A stretch of 11,149 nucleotides of DNA from Candidatus Zixiibacteriota bacterium (GCA_030628225.1 DAOVRJ010000058.1:1-11149), one strand, 5' to 3'; counted from the stretch's first letter, positions 1,203-6,030 are shown. Translations and numbers: made by a program. Notes: a model not told the origin generated them from the sequence alone.

Positions 1203-4004
1203 CTATTTTTTCTCTTCTTCCAGTAGAATCTCGCCTTCCTCTATGATGTTGATTGGGCGCTTCTTTTGGAGTACTTTTACCAAGATTTCCTTTCTTTCCC
1301 CGGGCTTTAATTCAAAGTTGAATGTATCCCTCTCAAAATAATGGTACTTAGGTAAATTATCTTCGTAGATTTTAAGTGTCCATTCCCTTGGACGAACCTC
1401 TTCAAACTCAAAGCGTCCTTCCCTATTTGTCAGGCGGCGCATCACTTCAGAGCCATTCCTGAGCTCAACAAGGATATTTGCTATCCCCTGAGCCTGGACC
1501 AATTTTGATTCTCCGTTGATGAAAGAACCGTTGTTATCGCCTTCACCGACGACATGCAGATTTCCATTCATATCTCCCGGAAATTTATTGTTGTGGTTAT
1601 TCTCATGGCCATAGAGCATAACCTGGCCAATAAGAGAAGCAAACCGGGTGATACCAACCTCAACCCGGGTTTCTTTTCCACCTTCAACAATAAGTTCCCT
1701 GGGGGTTTTCTGGACCGTAATTCGGTCCAGACCAATCCTTGCCGTGGATACGTCAAGGTAGTGTATACCCGGTTTTAAGGCAGGGAAGCTGAATTTACCC
1801 TTCTTATCGGTTACTGCAGTGGCACCATCGATTTTGAGAATCGCATCTGATATCGGTTGCTTGTTTTCTTCATCATAAACATATCCCCTTACCCTTCCAA
1901 CATCCTTCTTTCTAGCTGCCGGTAGGCCGAAAGGAATGGTGACTTCGACCTTAAAAGCGCTTTCATATTGGCCCCCAAAACTTCCGTATGACGTCCGACG
2001 ACCGCGCAACTGGATCTCACTCTGATTGCGAAATCTGTGACTCAAATGCAACTCTAGAACATCCCTATCTCCATCGGGAGATCCTTCATAGTCACTAGTT
2101 TGAAAATTAAGGGAAAAGATTGTACTGTTGGCAATTCGGAGGGAACTGTTCAGGCCTGCAGTTATACGGCGTCTCCTTTCTTCCGCATAATCGCCGCTAT
2201 CGTCACTGTAGATATATCCGCTGGAAGAGAGTTTATGAGTTGGCCTAAAATAGGCAGAGACCTTATATCTATCCAGTTGAGAGAATTGGTTACTCAACTC
2301 ATCCTTTCTTTGACCTGATTCAGCAGAAGCATTAAGGCGTAACTTTTTGAAACTCTGTCCTACGCCGAAAACAACGGTCTCCTCCCGGTAGCGGAATTCG
2401 GAATTGGGAAGCCGGTCTTCTCGGCTGCGGTCCCGCCAGTATGCATAAAAGCTGGTGCCGGTTTTGAGCCTATAGTCAAATCCCAATTTGTAGGACTTTT
2501 CCAGAGGGGCAGAGTTAAGGGTCGGGTCCATATCAAGATTTTTCTTTTCTTGCGTAAAGCTAGCCTTTAATCTAAGATTATGTTTTAAGCGAAATGCAAG
2601 ACCGCTTGAGATAAAATCCCTATCACGATAATGGGCCGGGCAGTCAGGCTCTGCGTGAACAAATCTTGAGGCGTAGGAAATCCAGTTCCAACGACTGGAA
2701 ACTCCTAACAGGTAGGCATCGCTCCTCTCTCTGTTTTTTTCTCCCGTTGCATACTCAAGCTCAACACTGGTGTTTCCAATAGGCCCAAGTCGGCATTCTA
2801 TACTGGCGATGTTTTCATCTTCACCGTCGATTTCTTTGTTAAGATAATTGAGGCCTATCTGAAATTTATCCAAAATTTGATAATCGATGTAGCTGGCAAT
2901 ATGTACCTCCTCTGGTTCAGACCAGCGCGTCACCGTGTGGTAGGCTCCTACTCTGAAATTGTTTAGGTTAAGCTTACCTTCAATTCCCCTTCCGTAACGG
3001 TAATTTTCAATTAAAGGCGAGAGAGAATGAATGAGGTCGCCAAAACGAAGTTCATAATATCTTGTCCAAAAAGTTAAACGGTATTCGTCGTACCGGCCAA
3101 AGATAGACTTATCCTGAACGTCCGGCCCTATGAAGAGAAATCTAACCCCCTTCTTACCCTCTTCGTCTAATGTTCCCGATCCGGAGATCTCTGCCTGAAA
3201 TCCAGCATCGTCTTCCTCATTTCTCTTGGTGACATACCTGAAAGTCATCTCAGTTGGAATCTTATGAAAACGCTGCTCCACCCCGGTTGTCCTGGGAAGA
3301 ATTTCCACATAGCTTGTAGCTTGAGCTTTTATCTCTTGGTCTTTGAGGGCTTGGGCGGTTAATCGGAGATGATACCTCAACAGCTCTTTCCTGTTTACAT
3401 CAGTGCTTACAACTACCTCAAGCCTTCTTGATTCGCCGGGAGTGAGTTCGAACTCTTCAGCATCGACAGCAAAGGGTAGGTTTTCTCCGCTATCAATTTT
3501 TATGCTGACCTTGCTTTCTGTATTACTTCCATTAATAACTGCAAAAGAGGTCTGGTAATCCTGCCCGGCAATCACAAATTCCGGAGCCTCCAACAATTTC
3601 ACGTCTAATTTCCTGACTGGCAGAACCACCACATCAATGGTATAAGAGTCCGTGAAGGAAGGAAGTTTTCTTCCTTTCACGAAATAGGTGAGCTCATATT
3701 GGCCGGCCAATGCGCTTTGGGGGACCAAGAAACTCACCAATCTGGTATCGCTTTCATGCGGACCTAATTCAAAAGAGGGATGGTTAGTTATAAGCGTCCA
3801 TCCCTGGGGAAGTTTCACCTCGGAGAGGAACTTTTCCTTCTCGGAGGTCTCATTGGTTACCTGAAATACAGCGGTCGCTATCCTTCTTGGTTCCGTCTCC
3901 AGCAGGTCTATTCCACTGGGTCTCACTTCCACACCGTTCTCTTGAGCCCCAAGGCATGGAGCGCACAAGAGAAGAGAGATAACAATGTGATAAAAAGTTT
4001 TCAT
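1203..4004 (-). CDS. Usher-like outer-membrane beta-barrel protein with flanking beta-sandwich domains
   Basis: A 933-residue exported protein. Residues 1-20 are a signal peptide (cleavage after CLGA). Two Ig-like/NEW3-like beta-sandwiches follow at about 25-128 and 133-236. About 250-690 is a run of alternating polar/aromatic strands with charged turns, ending in VEVTIPFGLP, which I read as a beta-barrel. FGDLIHSLSPLIENYRYGRG (321-340) recalls the GD...G pattern in the early barrel of ushers. About 703-783 is a carboxypeptidase-regulatory-like domain (VRGYVYDEENKQPISDA, then KKGKFSFPALKPG). About 787-912 is a second such domain carrying an Asn/Gly-rich insert (800-832). The tail is acidic. 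True ushers also have an N-terminal domain, a large barrel and two C-terminal sandwiches, so the layout matches even though I see no clear FimD/PapC sequence. The ATG overlaps the chaperone stop (ATGA). Role inferred: secretion and assembly platform for the upstream subunits. Alternative: a large outer-membrane protein of other function. Confidence 0.6.
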   Translation of the reverse strand: MKTFYHIVISLLLCAPCLGAQENGVEVRPSGIDLLETEPRRIATAVFQVTNETSEKEKFLSEVKLPQGWTLITNHPSFELGPHESDTRLVSFLVPQSALAGQYELTYFVKGRKLPSFTDSYTIDVVVLPVRKLDVKLLEAPEFVIAGQDYQTSFAVINGSNTESKVSIKIDSGENLPFAVDAEEFELTPGESRRLEVVVSTDVNRKELLRYHLRLTAQALKDQEIKAQATSYVEILPRTTGVEQRFHKIPTEMTFRYVTKRNEEDDAGFQAEISGSGTLDEEGKKGVRFLFIGPDVQDKSIFGRYDEYRLTFWTRYYELRFGDLIHSLSPLIENYRYGRGIEGKLNLNNFRVGAYHTVTRWSEPEEVHIASYIDYQILDKFQIGLNYLNKEIDGEDENIASIECRLGPIGNTSVELEYATGEKNRERSDAYLLGVSSRWNWISYASRFVHAEPDCPAHYRDRDFISSGLAFRLKHNLRLKASFTQEKKNLDMDPTLNSAPLEKSYKLGFDYRLKTGTSFYAYWRDRSREDRLPNSEFRYREETVVFGVGQSFKKLRLNASAESGQRKDELSNQFSQLDRYKVSAYFRPTHKLSSSGYIYSDDSGDYAEERRRRITAGLNSSLRIANSTIFSLNFQTSDYEGSPDGDRDVLELHLSHRFRNQSEIQLRGRRTSYGSFGGQYESAFKVEVTIPFGLPAARKKDVGRVRGYVYDEENKQPISDAILKIDGATAVTDKKGKFSFPALKPGIHYLDVSTARIGLDRITVQKTPRELIVEGGKETRVEVGITRFASLIGQVMLYGHENNHNNKFPGDMNGNLHVVGEGDNNGSFINGESKLVQAQGIANILVELRNGSEVMRRLTNREGRFEFEEVRPREWTLKIYEDNLPKYHYFERDTFNFELKPGERKEILVKVLQKKRPINIIEEGEILLEEEKK

Positions 4005-4819
4005 TTTTTAAACTTCAAGGCATAGGTGGCGCCAAAGAGGTCATCACCACCACAATCTGCTACCACCAAAACGTGGTATTTGCCCTCGTCCACCGGACTC
4101 AAATCAATAACACATCTGGCAGATGTTCCGGGATAGATGCGCAACCTCCCCCCTTCAAACCTCCCAATATAACTACCCTTTTCGTCATAGAGTTCAGCCC
4201 ATAAGAATGGTCTCAGCCATCTTTCACCGCTGTTTTCTATGCCTATCTGTAAAATTCTTCCTTCCTCCTCTCTCAGCAATTTTGTATTCAAGAATTCAAG
4301 TTGGCGGGCCCCCATATTGCCAATATGTGTGACCATCTGAATTCCGTAGCGCACGACCTGCCTTATGGCCAGCCTGACTTCACCCTGCTCTTCTCCTGTA
4401 GCTTCAGGTGAATCATTGGAAATGCCTTCTATCATGAGCATACTCCAGTAGGTTCCTACTAGGGTTTCATCGTCAGGCACCTTCACAGTATAATACACCT
4501 CAGATGTCCCTTTAGATGGAATGACCAGCCGATGCGAGCTAAAGGATATCCAATTGGCGTTGGAGCGGGGGCCGTCACCCGGCTCACCATATATGTTTCT
4601 TCCGTCAAAAAAGAATAGATAGTCGGTCTGATACACCTTTACCTCTTGTGGCTCTTCACCGGCATTACTGAGCAGGATAGCACCCTGGTAAGTTTCACCC
4701 ACCTTGGTAGTTATTTCATGTGTTAAACTACCTTTAACAGATACCTTAGCCTCGGATACATAGGGCATCAGCCAAAATAAAAGGAAAACCGGGAGAGCAA
4801 TTCCTGTTTTTGACTTCAT
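4001..4819 (-). CDS. Two-domain Ig-like periplasmic chaperone candidate
   Basis: A 272-residue exported protein. A signal peptide (MKSKTG, a hydrophobic core, cleavage near SEA) precedes two predicted beta-sandwich domains at about 25-155 and 160-272. The first domain carries a pattern seen in pilus chaperones and in DUF916-type domains: a W-x-x-F segment (NWISFSSHRLVIP), then a strand ending YYTVKVPDDE and GTYWSMLMIE. The second begins VRYGIQMVTHIG and includes EFLNTKLLREEEGRILQIGIENSGERW, as in a second Ig-fold. Two cysteines sit in the last 40 residues (RCVIDL, ADCGGDD). I place the start at the ATG at 4819, with AAGGAAG about seven bases upstream; a TTG immediately before it is less likely. 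The next gene overlaps the stop by four bases, so the two are translationally coupled. Likely role: holding the secreted subunits in the periplasm for the usher-like protein. I do not see the classic PapD signature. Confidence 0.6.
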   Translation of the reverse strand: MKSKTGIALPVFLLFWLMPYVSEAKVSVKGSLTHEITTKVGETYQGAILLSNAGEEPQEVKVYQTDYLFFFDGRNIYGEPGDGPRSNANWISFSSHRLVIPSKGTSEVYYTVKVPDDETLVGTYWSMLMIEGISNDSPEATGEEQGEVRLAIRQVVRYGIQMVTHIGNMGARQLEFLNTKLLREEEGRILQIGIENSGERWLRPFLWAELYDEKGSYIGRFEGGRLRIYPGTSARCVIDLSPVDEGKYHVLVVADCGGDDLFGATYALKFKK

Positions 4820-4834
4820 CAACTTTCTTCCTTG

Positions 4835-5296
4835 TTATTTGTCCACAACGGTATAATAAACCATAGTTGAGTAAGTATTCGGTGGGACTTGTATGGAAAC
4901 ACCGCTAAGCTTAAATTGTACATGTATATTAGATCTATCATGCCGTCTACTAAAGAAGGTTTCATTAACATGGGTTGCCTCTTGATAAGAAGTTCCCCCT
5001 GAGATACTACCGCTGCCAGATCCATCGGATGTCCTTTTGACGTATAAGTTACAACTACTATGCCAGTTAGTGTCGACCTTGTTAACATCAATCATCCAGT
5101 CTCCCTCAAGGAAAGTGTCAATATCGATTTCAATTGCATCCCGGGCACTTTCATGGTTATCAATTAAGTTTTTTCCGGCACCAGTCTGTAAATTTGATGC
5201 ATCTGATGCATCTATAGACTTAGACCAGCTACTCGTTACGGTGATTGATACGATAGCCTGGGCCTCTTTGCTCCCCCAAATTACCGTTGCTATCAA
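4835..5296 (-). CDS. Second secreted subunit, with a disrupted signal-peptide frame
   Basis: The open frame encodes about 153 residues from a TTG at 5296. The beginning, ...IATVIWGSKEAQA, is the back half of a signal peptide with no basic N-terminus. The missing front half is present in another frame: an ATG at 5330 gives MKIITRFCTLFL, and skipping one base at about 5294 joins them into a normal signal peptide cleaved after AQA. The mature part is polar, starts with a strand (IVSITVTSSW), has one cysteine (SSCNLYV) and a Ser/Gly loop, and ends with PPNTYSTMVYYTVVDK, a typical last strand of secreted beta-sandwich subunits. It lies between the major subunit and the chaperone candidate, so it is probably a minor or adaptor subunit. 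No clear SD precedes either start. Either there is a one-base insertion or sequence error, or the gene is broken. Confidence 0.6.
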   Translation of the reverse strand: MIATVIWGSKEAQAIVSITVTSSWSKSIDASDASNLQTGAGKNLIDNHESARDAIEIDIDTFLEGDWMIDVNKVDTNWHSSCNLYVKRTSDGSGSGSISGGTSYQEATHVNETFFSRRHDRSNIHVQFKLSGVSIQVPPNTYSTMVYYTVVDK

Positions 5297-5330
5297 GGAA
5301 TAGAGTACAAAATCTTGTTATGATTTTCAT
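5297..5330 (-). other. Out-of-frame front half of the second subunit's signal peptide
   Basis: The ATG at 5330 opens M-K-I-I-T-R-F-C-T-L-F-L, a basic n-region and start of a hydrophobic core. This frame then runs into unrelated residues and stops within about 20 codons. The neighbouring frame carries the rest of the hydrophobic core plus AQA and is closed upstream by TAA (5318-5320) without an ATG. The two pieces fit together perfectly if one base is removed. Confidence 0.55.
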
Positions 5331-5350
5331 TTTACTATTTTTGCAGGAAA

Positions 5351-5376
5351 AGGGCGGACATGAGAAGATCCGCCCT
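5351..5376 (-). terminator. Hairpin terminator after the major subunit gene
   Basis: AGGGCGGA and TCCGCCCT form a perfect 8-base stem around a 10-base loop, beginning 13 bases after the subunit stop codon. On the minus strand the stem is followed by TTTCC and then an A-rich stretch. The short T run suggests partial termination, which would make much subunit mRNA and less of the three downstream genes, as in many pilus operons. Confidence 0.6.
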
Positions 5377-5389
5377 TCTTCTGCCTCAA

Positions 5390-5890
5390 TTAGGGAGCCG
5401 CTGTAATAATGGTGTAGGTAACCGTGTGCACGTCGTTTCCCGTTCCGGCTGCCGCAGTGGCGCTTCCGGTGTACTGGATGTCGCAGCCGCCAGTAGTTAC
5501 ATTCACCTTAGTGACGAAATCCTTGGCATCGGTGTTATTAAGAGTTGCTTCTGGGGCTGGCACGCCGCCGGTGACATTCTGAGCGACAACCTTCAGGGTG
5601 AAATGCTGATCGGCAAGATCAGTCTGCACGGTGATCTTCTTGCCTATCTCGTTGGTGGTCCAATCAAGGTCACAGGTGGTATTGTCCACTGCATCATCGG
5701 GATCTGACCCGGCAGTGGCGCTATTAATGGTCAGGGTGACAGCCCCGCCGATAATAGCGACCTCGTTAATCGCCAGTACTTGTACGGTGACAGAATGATT
5801 ATCCGTAGAGCTTCCTAAGACCACTCCGGTCAGTCCCAGGCACAGGGCAGCGCTTAACACCATAATGAGTGTTGGTGGCCGTATTTTCAT
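5390..5890 (-). CDS. Major secreted subunit (pilin-like beta-sandwich protein)
   Basis: A 166-residue exported protein: basic start MKIRPP, a hydrophobic core to about residue 25, likely cleavage at VLG/SS. The mature domain is rich in Thr, Val, Ala and Asp and has alternating beta patterns: NHSVTVQVLAINEVAI, VTLTINSATAG, KKITVQT, FTLKVVAQNVTGG. Two cysteines (73 and 136) occur in matching contexts, CDLDWTT and CDIQYTG, and may form a disulphide. The end, DVHTVTYTIITAAP, resembles the last strand of secreted Ig-like subunits and parallels the end of the neighbouring subunit. I recall similar uncharacterised secreted proteins in environmental bacteria but no named function. The start is firm: AGGAGGTGA, a near-ideal SD, lies seven bases before the ATG. 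It is first in the operon and followed by its own terminator, the usual position of the most abundant subunit. There is no lipobox. Other possibility: a non-polymerising surface or periplasmic protein. Confidence 0.65.
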   Translation of the reverse strand: MKIRPPTLIMVLSAALCLGLTGVVLGSSTDNHSVTVQVLAINEVAIIGGAVTLTINSATAGSDPDDAVDNTTCDLDWTTNEIGKKITVQTDLADQHFTLKVVAQNVTGGVPAPEATLNNTDAKDFVTKVNVTTGGCDIQYTGSATAAAGTGNDVHTVTYTIITAAP

Positions 5891-5897
5891 TTCTTAC

Positions 5898-5906
5898 TCA
5901 CCTCCT
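5898..5906 (-). promoter_or_regulatory. Near-ideal ribosome binding site of the major subunit
   Basis: On the minus strand AGGAGGTGA, complementary to almost the whole anti-SD sequence, is followed by seven bases (GTAAGAA) and ATG. It fixes the start and suggests strong translation. The second subunit, in contrast, has no recognisable SD. Confidence 0.85.
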
Positions 5907-5926
5907 TTTATGAGTGTTGTTGACCG

Positions 5927-5991
5927 TTTTGGAATCTTAATTACCTTCTTTTGGAGATGCGATGTAGGACTTTTGGAGATGTAATGTGGGA
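5927..5991 (-). promoter_or_regulatory. Three TCCAAAA boxes at exact 22-base spacing upstream of the fibre operon
   Basis: On the plus strand TTTTGGA (minus strand TCCAAAA) occurs at 5927-5933, 5949-5955 and 5971-5977, so steps are exactly 22 bases, about two helical turns. The outer two boxes lie in a full tandem duplication, 5948-5969 and 5970-5991, which differ at three of 22 positions; the box nearest the gene keeps only the core. Same-face spacing suggests binding of a protein array. If the candidate promoter at 6002-6030 is right, the boxes lie just downstream of its start, so they would act as repressor sites or in the RNA leader. Confidence 0.5.
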
Positions 5992-6001
5992 AATTTATGC
6001 C

Positions 6002-6030
6002 AGAATAGCTTAAGTTGTAGCAGATAACAA
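6002..6030 (-). promoter_or_regulatory. Candidate sigma-70 promoter of the fibre operon
   Basis: On the minus strand TTGTTA (6030-6025) and TATTCT (6007-6002) are separated by 17 bases. Each matches four of six consensus positions. Transcription would start near 5995, giving a leader of about 105 bases before the major subunit. Suggestive only. Confidence 0.35.

Follow-up and report, generated by a model that had tools for sequence, protein, structure and literature searches.

The window, a stretch of 11,149 nucleotides from Candidatus Zixiibacteriota bacterium (GCA_030628225.1 DAOVRJ010000058.1:1-11149), carries a cluster of four genes, and the question raised by this locus is whether they encode a chaperone-usher (CU) system for the assembly of surface fibres, as had been proposed in a first-pass annotation of the DNA. 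The answer reached here is that the operon probably encodes a CU-like donor-strand system, in which surface subunits are secreted and probably polymerised through a plug-less pore. The operon, on a contig from a draft genome of 2.3 Mb, occupies positions 1203 to 5890 of the minus strand. All four reading frames were confirmed by calling of open reading frames (ORFs), and the coding part stops at 5890, not at 6030, the limit first given. The order of transcription is sub1, a hairpin, sub2 (a 153-amino-acid open frame), chap and barrel:

5898 to 5905, minus strand: strong, near-perfect Shine-Dalgarno sequence of sub1, GGAGGTGA, given also as AAAAGGAGGTGA, seven bases ahead of the sub1 ATG
5390 to 5890, minus strand: sub1, secreted subunit of 166 amino acids (aa) (ORF; family A3, 32 members; C-terminus HTVTYTIITAAP)
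5343 to 5384, minus strand: terminator-like hairpin between sub1 and sub2, with a 12-bp inner stem followed by TTTT
4835 to 5296, minus strand: sub2, second secreted subunit (ORF; family A4; C-terminus NTYSTMVYYTVVDK)
4001 to 4819, minus strand: chap, predicted periplasmic chaperone-like protein of 272 aa with two immunoglobulin (Ig) domains (AlphaFold2 predicted local distance difference test (pLDDT) 89; fold match; hhalign)
1203 to 4004, minus strand: barrel, predicted outer-membrane barrel protein of 933 aa (ORF; AlphaFold2 pLDDT 86.5)

Scanning of genome contigs with chap yielded 23 related loci, most of them from draft metagenome-assembled genomes (MAGs) with mechanically called ORFs. The loci were distributed over Desulfobacterota, Bacteroidota, Ignavibacteriales, Armatimonadetes, Elusimicrobia, Verrucomicrobia and other groups, and among the Bacteroidota carriers were two isolates, Pseudarcicella hirudinis and Emticicia sp. 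The barrel gene followed directly behind chap on the same strand in 22 of the 23 loci (two were split into two ORFs and some were cut by a contig end). One to five subunit genes lay around the chaperone gene, usually in front of it, in all loci but one, which was at a contig edge. As the same gene order recurs in distant genomes, the operon is more than a chance arrangement, and both order and conservation can be regarded as established. In a sample of 386 genomes across the bacterial domain the chap profile matched 51 genomes, some of the matches being WxLIP-type proteins, and the barrel profile matched 17, 15 of which also carried a chap match (hypergeometric P 1e-12). The four-gene operon of the first-pass annotation is thus real, and its genes clearly stay together. 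Among 45 more distant chaperone matches, 31 had a same-strand ORF of at least 600 aa within two genes downstream, and 26 had small ORFs upstream.

Searches of Pfam, NCBIfam and PDB sequences with single proteins and with profiles returned no family naming any of the four proteins, and no published description of the system was found in a partial literature search, without subscription papers and preprints. In the source genome chap and sub1 are each present once, as is the barrel protein at full length, and the classical Usher and SCPU models gave no match there. Classical ushers were present in only one of 98 genomes sampled around it, and a plasmid search using barrel gave no match. The guanine-plus-cytosine content is 0.41-0.46 in sub2, chap and barrel, 0.54 in sub1 and 0.59 in the right flank. 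Because of this contrast to the flank, and because the nearest relatives are Desulfobacterota MAGs (63-66% identity), horizontal acquisition of the operon is plausible.

The regulatory signals were largely as first described. Besides the Shine-Dalgarno sequence, sub1 has its own terminator-like hairpin (minimum free energy -26.9 kcal/mol, z -5.9 against shuffled sequences), which did not satisfy the loop-length and T-run rules of a generic terminator scan and had been missed by it. With read-through from this hairpin into the remaining genes, sub1 would be the abundant subunit. The overlap of the barrel start with the preceding stop was also seen: chap and barrel share ATGA (chap stop 4001-4003, barrel ATG 4004-4002), and the same -1 overlap occurs in three related loci (L006, L007, L008).

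The gene product chap fits the earlier description of a two-domain, Ig-like exported protein. It has a signal peptide, no lipobox and no C-terminal transmembrane helix, the model ending in a beta strand; the least certain mature part of the AlphaFold2 model is the loop 134-156, ahead of strand 157-166. By Foldseek and VIA-align the closest solved structure was WxLIP of Enterococcus faecium (Z 17.3 over 232 residues), and CfaA, FimC and CsuC came next in VIA-align with Z values of 12-13 over both domains. In profile comparisons the chap family (63 members) matched ten E. coli K-12 pilus chaperones with an hhalign probability of 95.3 (E 2.3e-8, 206 columns) and two WxLIP-type proteins with 99.5, at no more than 0.2% for shuffled controls; these reference sets were small, and an earlier, smaller comparison with pilus chaperones had given only 53%. 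The PapD_N and PapD_C models of Pfam matched none of 25 family members. A bridging sequence was found in L093, the chaperone of which matches both the chap family (2e-29) and pilus chaperones (2e-5); this distant relative reached only E 0.03 with the PapD models. L125 encodes a true chaperone of the archaic CU type, which matched the chap family (A1) at 5e-5. Judged from its model, chap is a PapD/WxLIP-type chaperone, and the profiles indicate homology. In one related locus (L087, 6662-7804) a chap-family chaperone is fused to a C-terminal, peptidoglycan-binding SPOR domain (residues 302-366).

A putative donor strand was recognised in chap:

4334 to 4378, minus strand: G1-like donor strand, chap residues 148-162, with alternating hydrophobic residues

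The equivalent G1 strand is the donor strand of CU chaperones (PMC4654587), and a proline invariant among these (PMC4654587) aligns with the P of an FSP motif that many members of the chap family keep and the window's chap does not. The alignment from the comparison that had given 53% places chap V148, L150, I152, Q154, V156 and R157 opposite FimC L103, L105, I107, S109, I111 and K112, with shared alternation and an identical break. Arg157 (codon 4349-4351), which falls on FimC Lys112, is kept in 24 of 25 members. In FimC, K112 helps to bind the carboxylate of the subunit.

The same data bear on a different reading, a Gram-negative WxL-like surface complex, in which chap would be a permanent scaffold of the subunits as WxLIP is for WxL, and barrel would only export or anchor, with no polymerisation. 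Both in fold and in profile, chap is closer to WxLIP than to PapD, and the chap consensus matches WxLIP_PGBD at E 4e-5 (24.0 bits, under the cut-off of 27.3). According to prediction, WxLIP inserts a hairpin into WxL and so completes its partner (PMC10599100), and the loci, like WxL clusters, often pair a small and a larger protein sharing a C-terminal motif. Since chap has neither transmembrane helix nor lipobox, the subunits show no WxL match, and as many as five copies of the subunit in one locus, with a barrel behind, fit the export of many subunits better, we consider this complex unlikely.

The families of sub1 and sub2 matched no Pfam family, including WxL, SCPU, Fimbrial and DUF4402. 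They matched each other with an hhalign probability of 95%, or 67% without signal peptides. Nearly all subunits end in a strand like VTYTI or YSTxVYYTV, and archaic pilins have a similar end, GTYSDTVTITV. The C-terminal motif [GNSD]x[YF]..[VIL]x[YF]T, a pattern devised after inspection of the data, was present in 35 of the 168 genes close to a chaperone gene, against 3 of 173 far from one. ORFs of 260-520 aa near chaperones in L085, L088, L090, L091, L094, L097 and L109 share this type of end and are candidate two-domain adhesins. An apparent kinship of the subunits with SCPU (hhalign 87%) was rejected, as the link vanished once signal peptides were cut. WxLIP-like Ig proteins with a C-terminal transmembrane helix were observed in L111 (genome G062, 0.8 Mb) and L113 (G248, 9.2 Mb); beside them lie secreted proteins of 516 and 441 aa, respectively, with the subunit C-terminal motif, and no barrel follows directly.

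The second secreted subunit of the first-pass annotation calls for a correction. Its ORF and family are present, and it lacks a good start. The only ATG giving a signal-peptide-like sequence (5330) is in another frame: within 5270-5345, reading from this ATG gives MKIITRFCTLFLDSNG, and the body reads from TTG 5296. For this reason the sub2 copy seems, from its sequence, to be frameshifted within the signal peptide, or the contig to contain an error there. The signal peptides of the sub2 relatives in L004 and L006 are continuous.

The model of the barrel protein was divided into three predicted parts:

3297 to 3932, minus strand: two periplasmic Ig-like (NEW3/FixG_C) domains, barrel residues 25-236 (Pfam PF11614/PF10633; DSSP)
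1911 to 3269, minus strand: about 26 transmembrane strands, barrel residues 246-698 (DSSP of the model; MtrB Z 22.3)
1266 to 1898, minus strand: two C-terminal transthyretin-like (CarboxypepD_reg) domains, barrel residues 703-913 (PF13620)

PF13620 was found in all 18 barrel family members, and the Ig domains in most. Over the whole barrel chain FimD and PapC ranked first in Foldseek (E 4e-16); in VIA-align PapC ranked second (Z 17.4), with the C-terminal domains included and the alignment reaching residue 914. The N-terminal Ig pair matched the chaperone family with an hhalign probability of 96%, which hints that the pore has been joined to a second copy of the chaperone, or else that the two share general Ig similarity. 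Some family members bear SPOR or LysM domains. In L009, L011 and L015 (genomes G256, G383 and G119, apparently of one genus) the N-terminus of the barrel has no common start codon, a likely signal peptide lies in another frame, and the frame, read from directly after a stop near the start of the gene (an apparent in-frame TAG), runs on. In L089 (10614-13184) the barrel is directly followed by a protein of 857 aa that combines metallo-beta-lactamase and Big_5 domains with one for type IX secretion sorting.

In the donor-strand system that we favour, sub1 and sub2 would reach the periplasm via Sec, each as an incomplete beta-sandwich. We infer that chap binds a subunit and donates, from its G1 edge, the strand that the subunit lacks, with Arg157 as the likely anchor of the C-terminal carboxylate of the subunit. 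The complex may then dock on the N-terminal Ig domains of barrel, on the transthyretin-like domains, or on both. The subunits would cross the plug-less pore of the 26-strand barrel, and donor-strand exchange would most likely then join them into a fibre on the surface or an adhesin of several subunits.

Several results weigh against this system. No plug domain is inserted in the barrel, and about 26 strands were counted, compared with 24 in ushers, in what is one predicted model. The closest barrel in VIA-align was MtrB (Z 22.3, root-mean-square deviation 4.2, 415 residues), and the Z value for ushers (17) was no better than for TonB receptors (16-17), except in coverage of the C-terminal domains. 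In profile comparisons, enriched profiles included, barrel and ushers gave hhalign probabilities of 7-11%, that is, no detectable sequence similarity; the subunits without signal peptides gave 0.3-2.6% with SCPU, again no sequence link. The chap family has no equivalent of the classical anchor Arg8; the classical anchor pair is absent also from archaic and alternative chaperones (PMC4654587). Fourteen of the 45 distant chaperones had no large ORF behind them (some were cut by contig ends, some were WxLIP-type). The disturbed start of sub2 and the choice of the C-terminal pattern after the fact belong here as well. Of the profile comparisons suggested in the first-pass annotation, that of chap thus gave matches to pilus chaperones and WxLIP, and those of barrel with ushers and of the subunits with SCPU gave none. 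The annotation had also set an ordinary plug-less porin against its own proposal, and half of that description applies, as the model has no plug.

The barrel data also bear on two further explanations. A true but highly diverged archaic or alternative CU pathway, the usher of which had lost its plug, would account for the operon order, which is that of fimA-fimI-fimC-fimD, for FimD and PapC as best full-length Foldseek matches and for the match of the archaic CU chaperone to family A1. It is nevertheless quite improbable: in the model the plug, the strand number and the types of N- and C-terminal domains differ, barrel shows no sequence similarity to ushers, and PapD, Usher and SCPU gave no Pfam match above the cut-off. 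The Usher model reached E 0.011, under the cut-off, in one of 18 barrel family members, in agreement with the lack of PapD, FimD and SCPU signatures remarked on earlier. The other explanation, a cluster for a porin or another outer-membrane protein unrelated to assembly, with the Ig protein as an accessory stabiliser, would suit the Porin_4 match, which exceeds the Pfam cut-off, and the MtrB-like barrel. The tight, ordered co-occurrence with multi-copy secreted subunits, the absence of a haem protein or CxxCH motif among the four proteins, and the transthyretin-like and Ig domains of the family make it very improbable indeed. An MtrB function was rejected, as none of the four proteins contains CxxCH.

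Beyond the donor-strand system itself, it is possible, though we hold it only tentatively, that the operon represents a separate, broadly distributed outer-membrane pathway for secretion and fibre assembly, with a pore not descended from ushers and a donor-strand chaperone ancestry common to WxL/WxLIP and CU pili, linking both. If the donor-strand system is right, many phyla without an annotated CU system would have a pathway for assembling surface fibres or adhesins, chap would be an evolutionary bridge between Gram-positive WxLIP and PapD-type pilus chaperones, and barrel would be a test case for a plug-less 26-strand barrel performing the work of an usher. The cultured carriers Pseudarcicella hirudinis and Emticicia make the system testable.

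Three repeats were observed left of the operon. A 54-bp direct repeat of the type CCAGTATCCAG/TCTCGAGTCTCGA lies at 13-66 and 118-171 (89% identical, 105 bp apart), a 9-bp repeat of the GAGTTTAGA type occurs in five copies at 805-867, and a perfect, loop-less 15-bp inverted repeat, TGTAGGGGCGGTTGG/CCAACCGCCCCTACA, at 960-989.

Compared with known systems, the operon resembles CU pili (Fim, Csu, CFA/I) in the order subunit-subunit-chaperone-barrel, in the profile-homologous two-Ig chaperone with a donor-strand-like G1 and a basic residue at the place of FimC Lys112, and in a barrel protein made of N-domain, barrel and two C-terminal sandwich domains. It differs in the plug-less barrel of about 26 strands without a sequence match to ushers, in Ig domains replacing the usher N-terminal domain, in transthyretin-like C-domains, in subunits matching neither Fimbrial nor SCPU, and in a chap family without Arg8. 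From the CU proposal of the first-pass annotation, the chaperone role and the operon logic are supported by fold, profile homology, the donor-strand-like G1 with its basic residue and co-occurrence, but barrel is not an usher by the features tested. Since the features that define an usher were looked for in the model and are absent from it, the operon is not assigned to the CU pathways. With the Gram-positive WxL/WxLIP (DUF916-DUF3324) clusters it shares the fold of the chaperone across its two Ig domains (Z 17), the profile match (hhalign 99.5%), a flexible F1-G1 hairpin that would, by prediction, complete the sandwich of the partner, and clustered small secreted partners; unlike these clusters it has a chap without transmembrane helix, partners that are not WxL by Pfam, and an outer-membrane barrel, and it is not assigned to them either. 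The MtrB sheath has the same 26-strand barrel fold, whereas barrel has no cytochrome partner, carries added Ig and transthyretin-like domains and stands among other gene neighbours.

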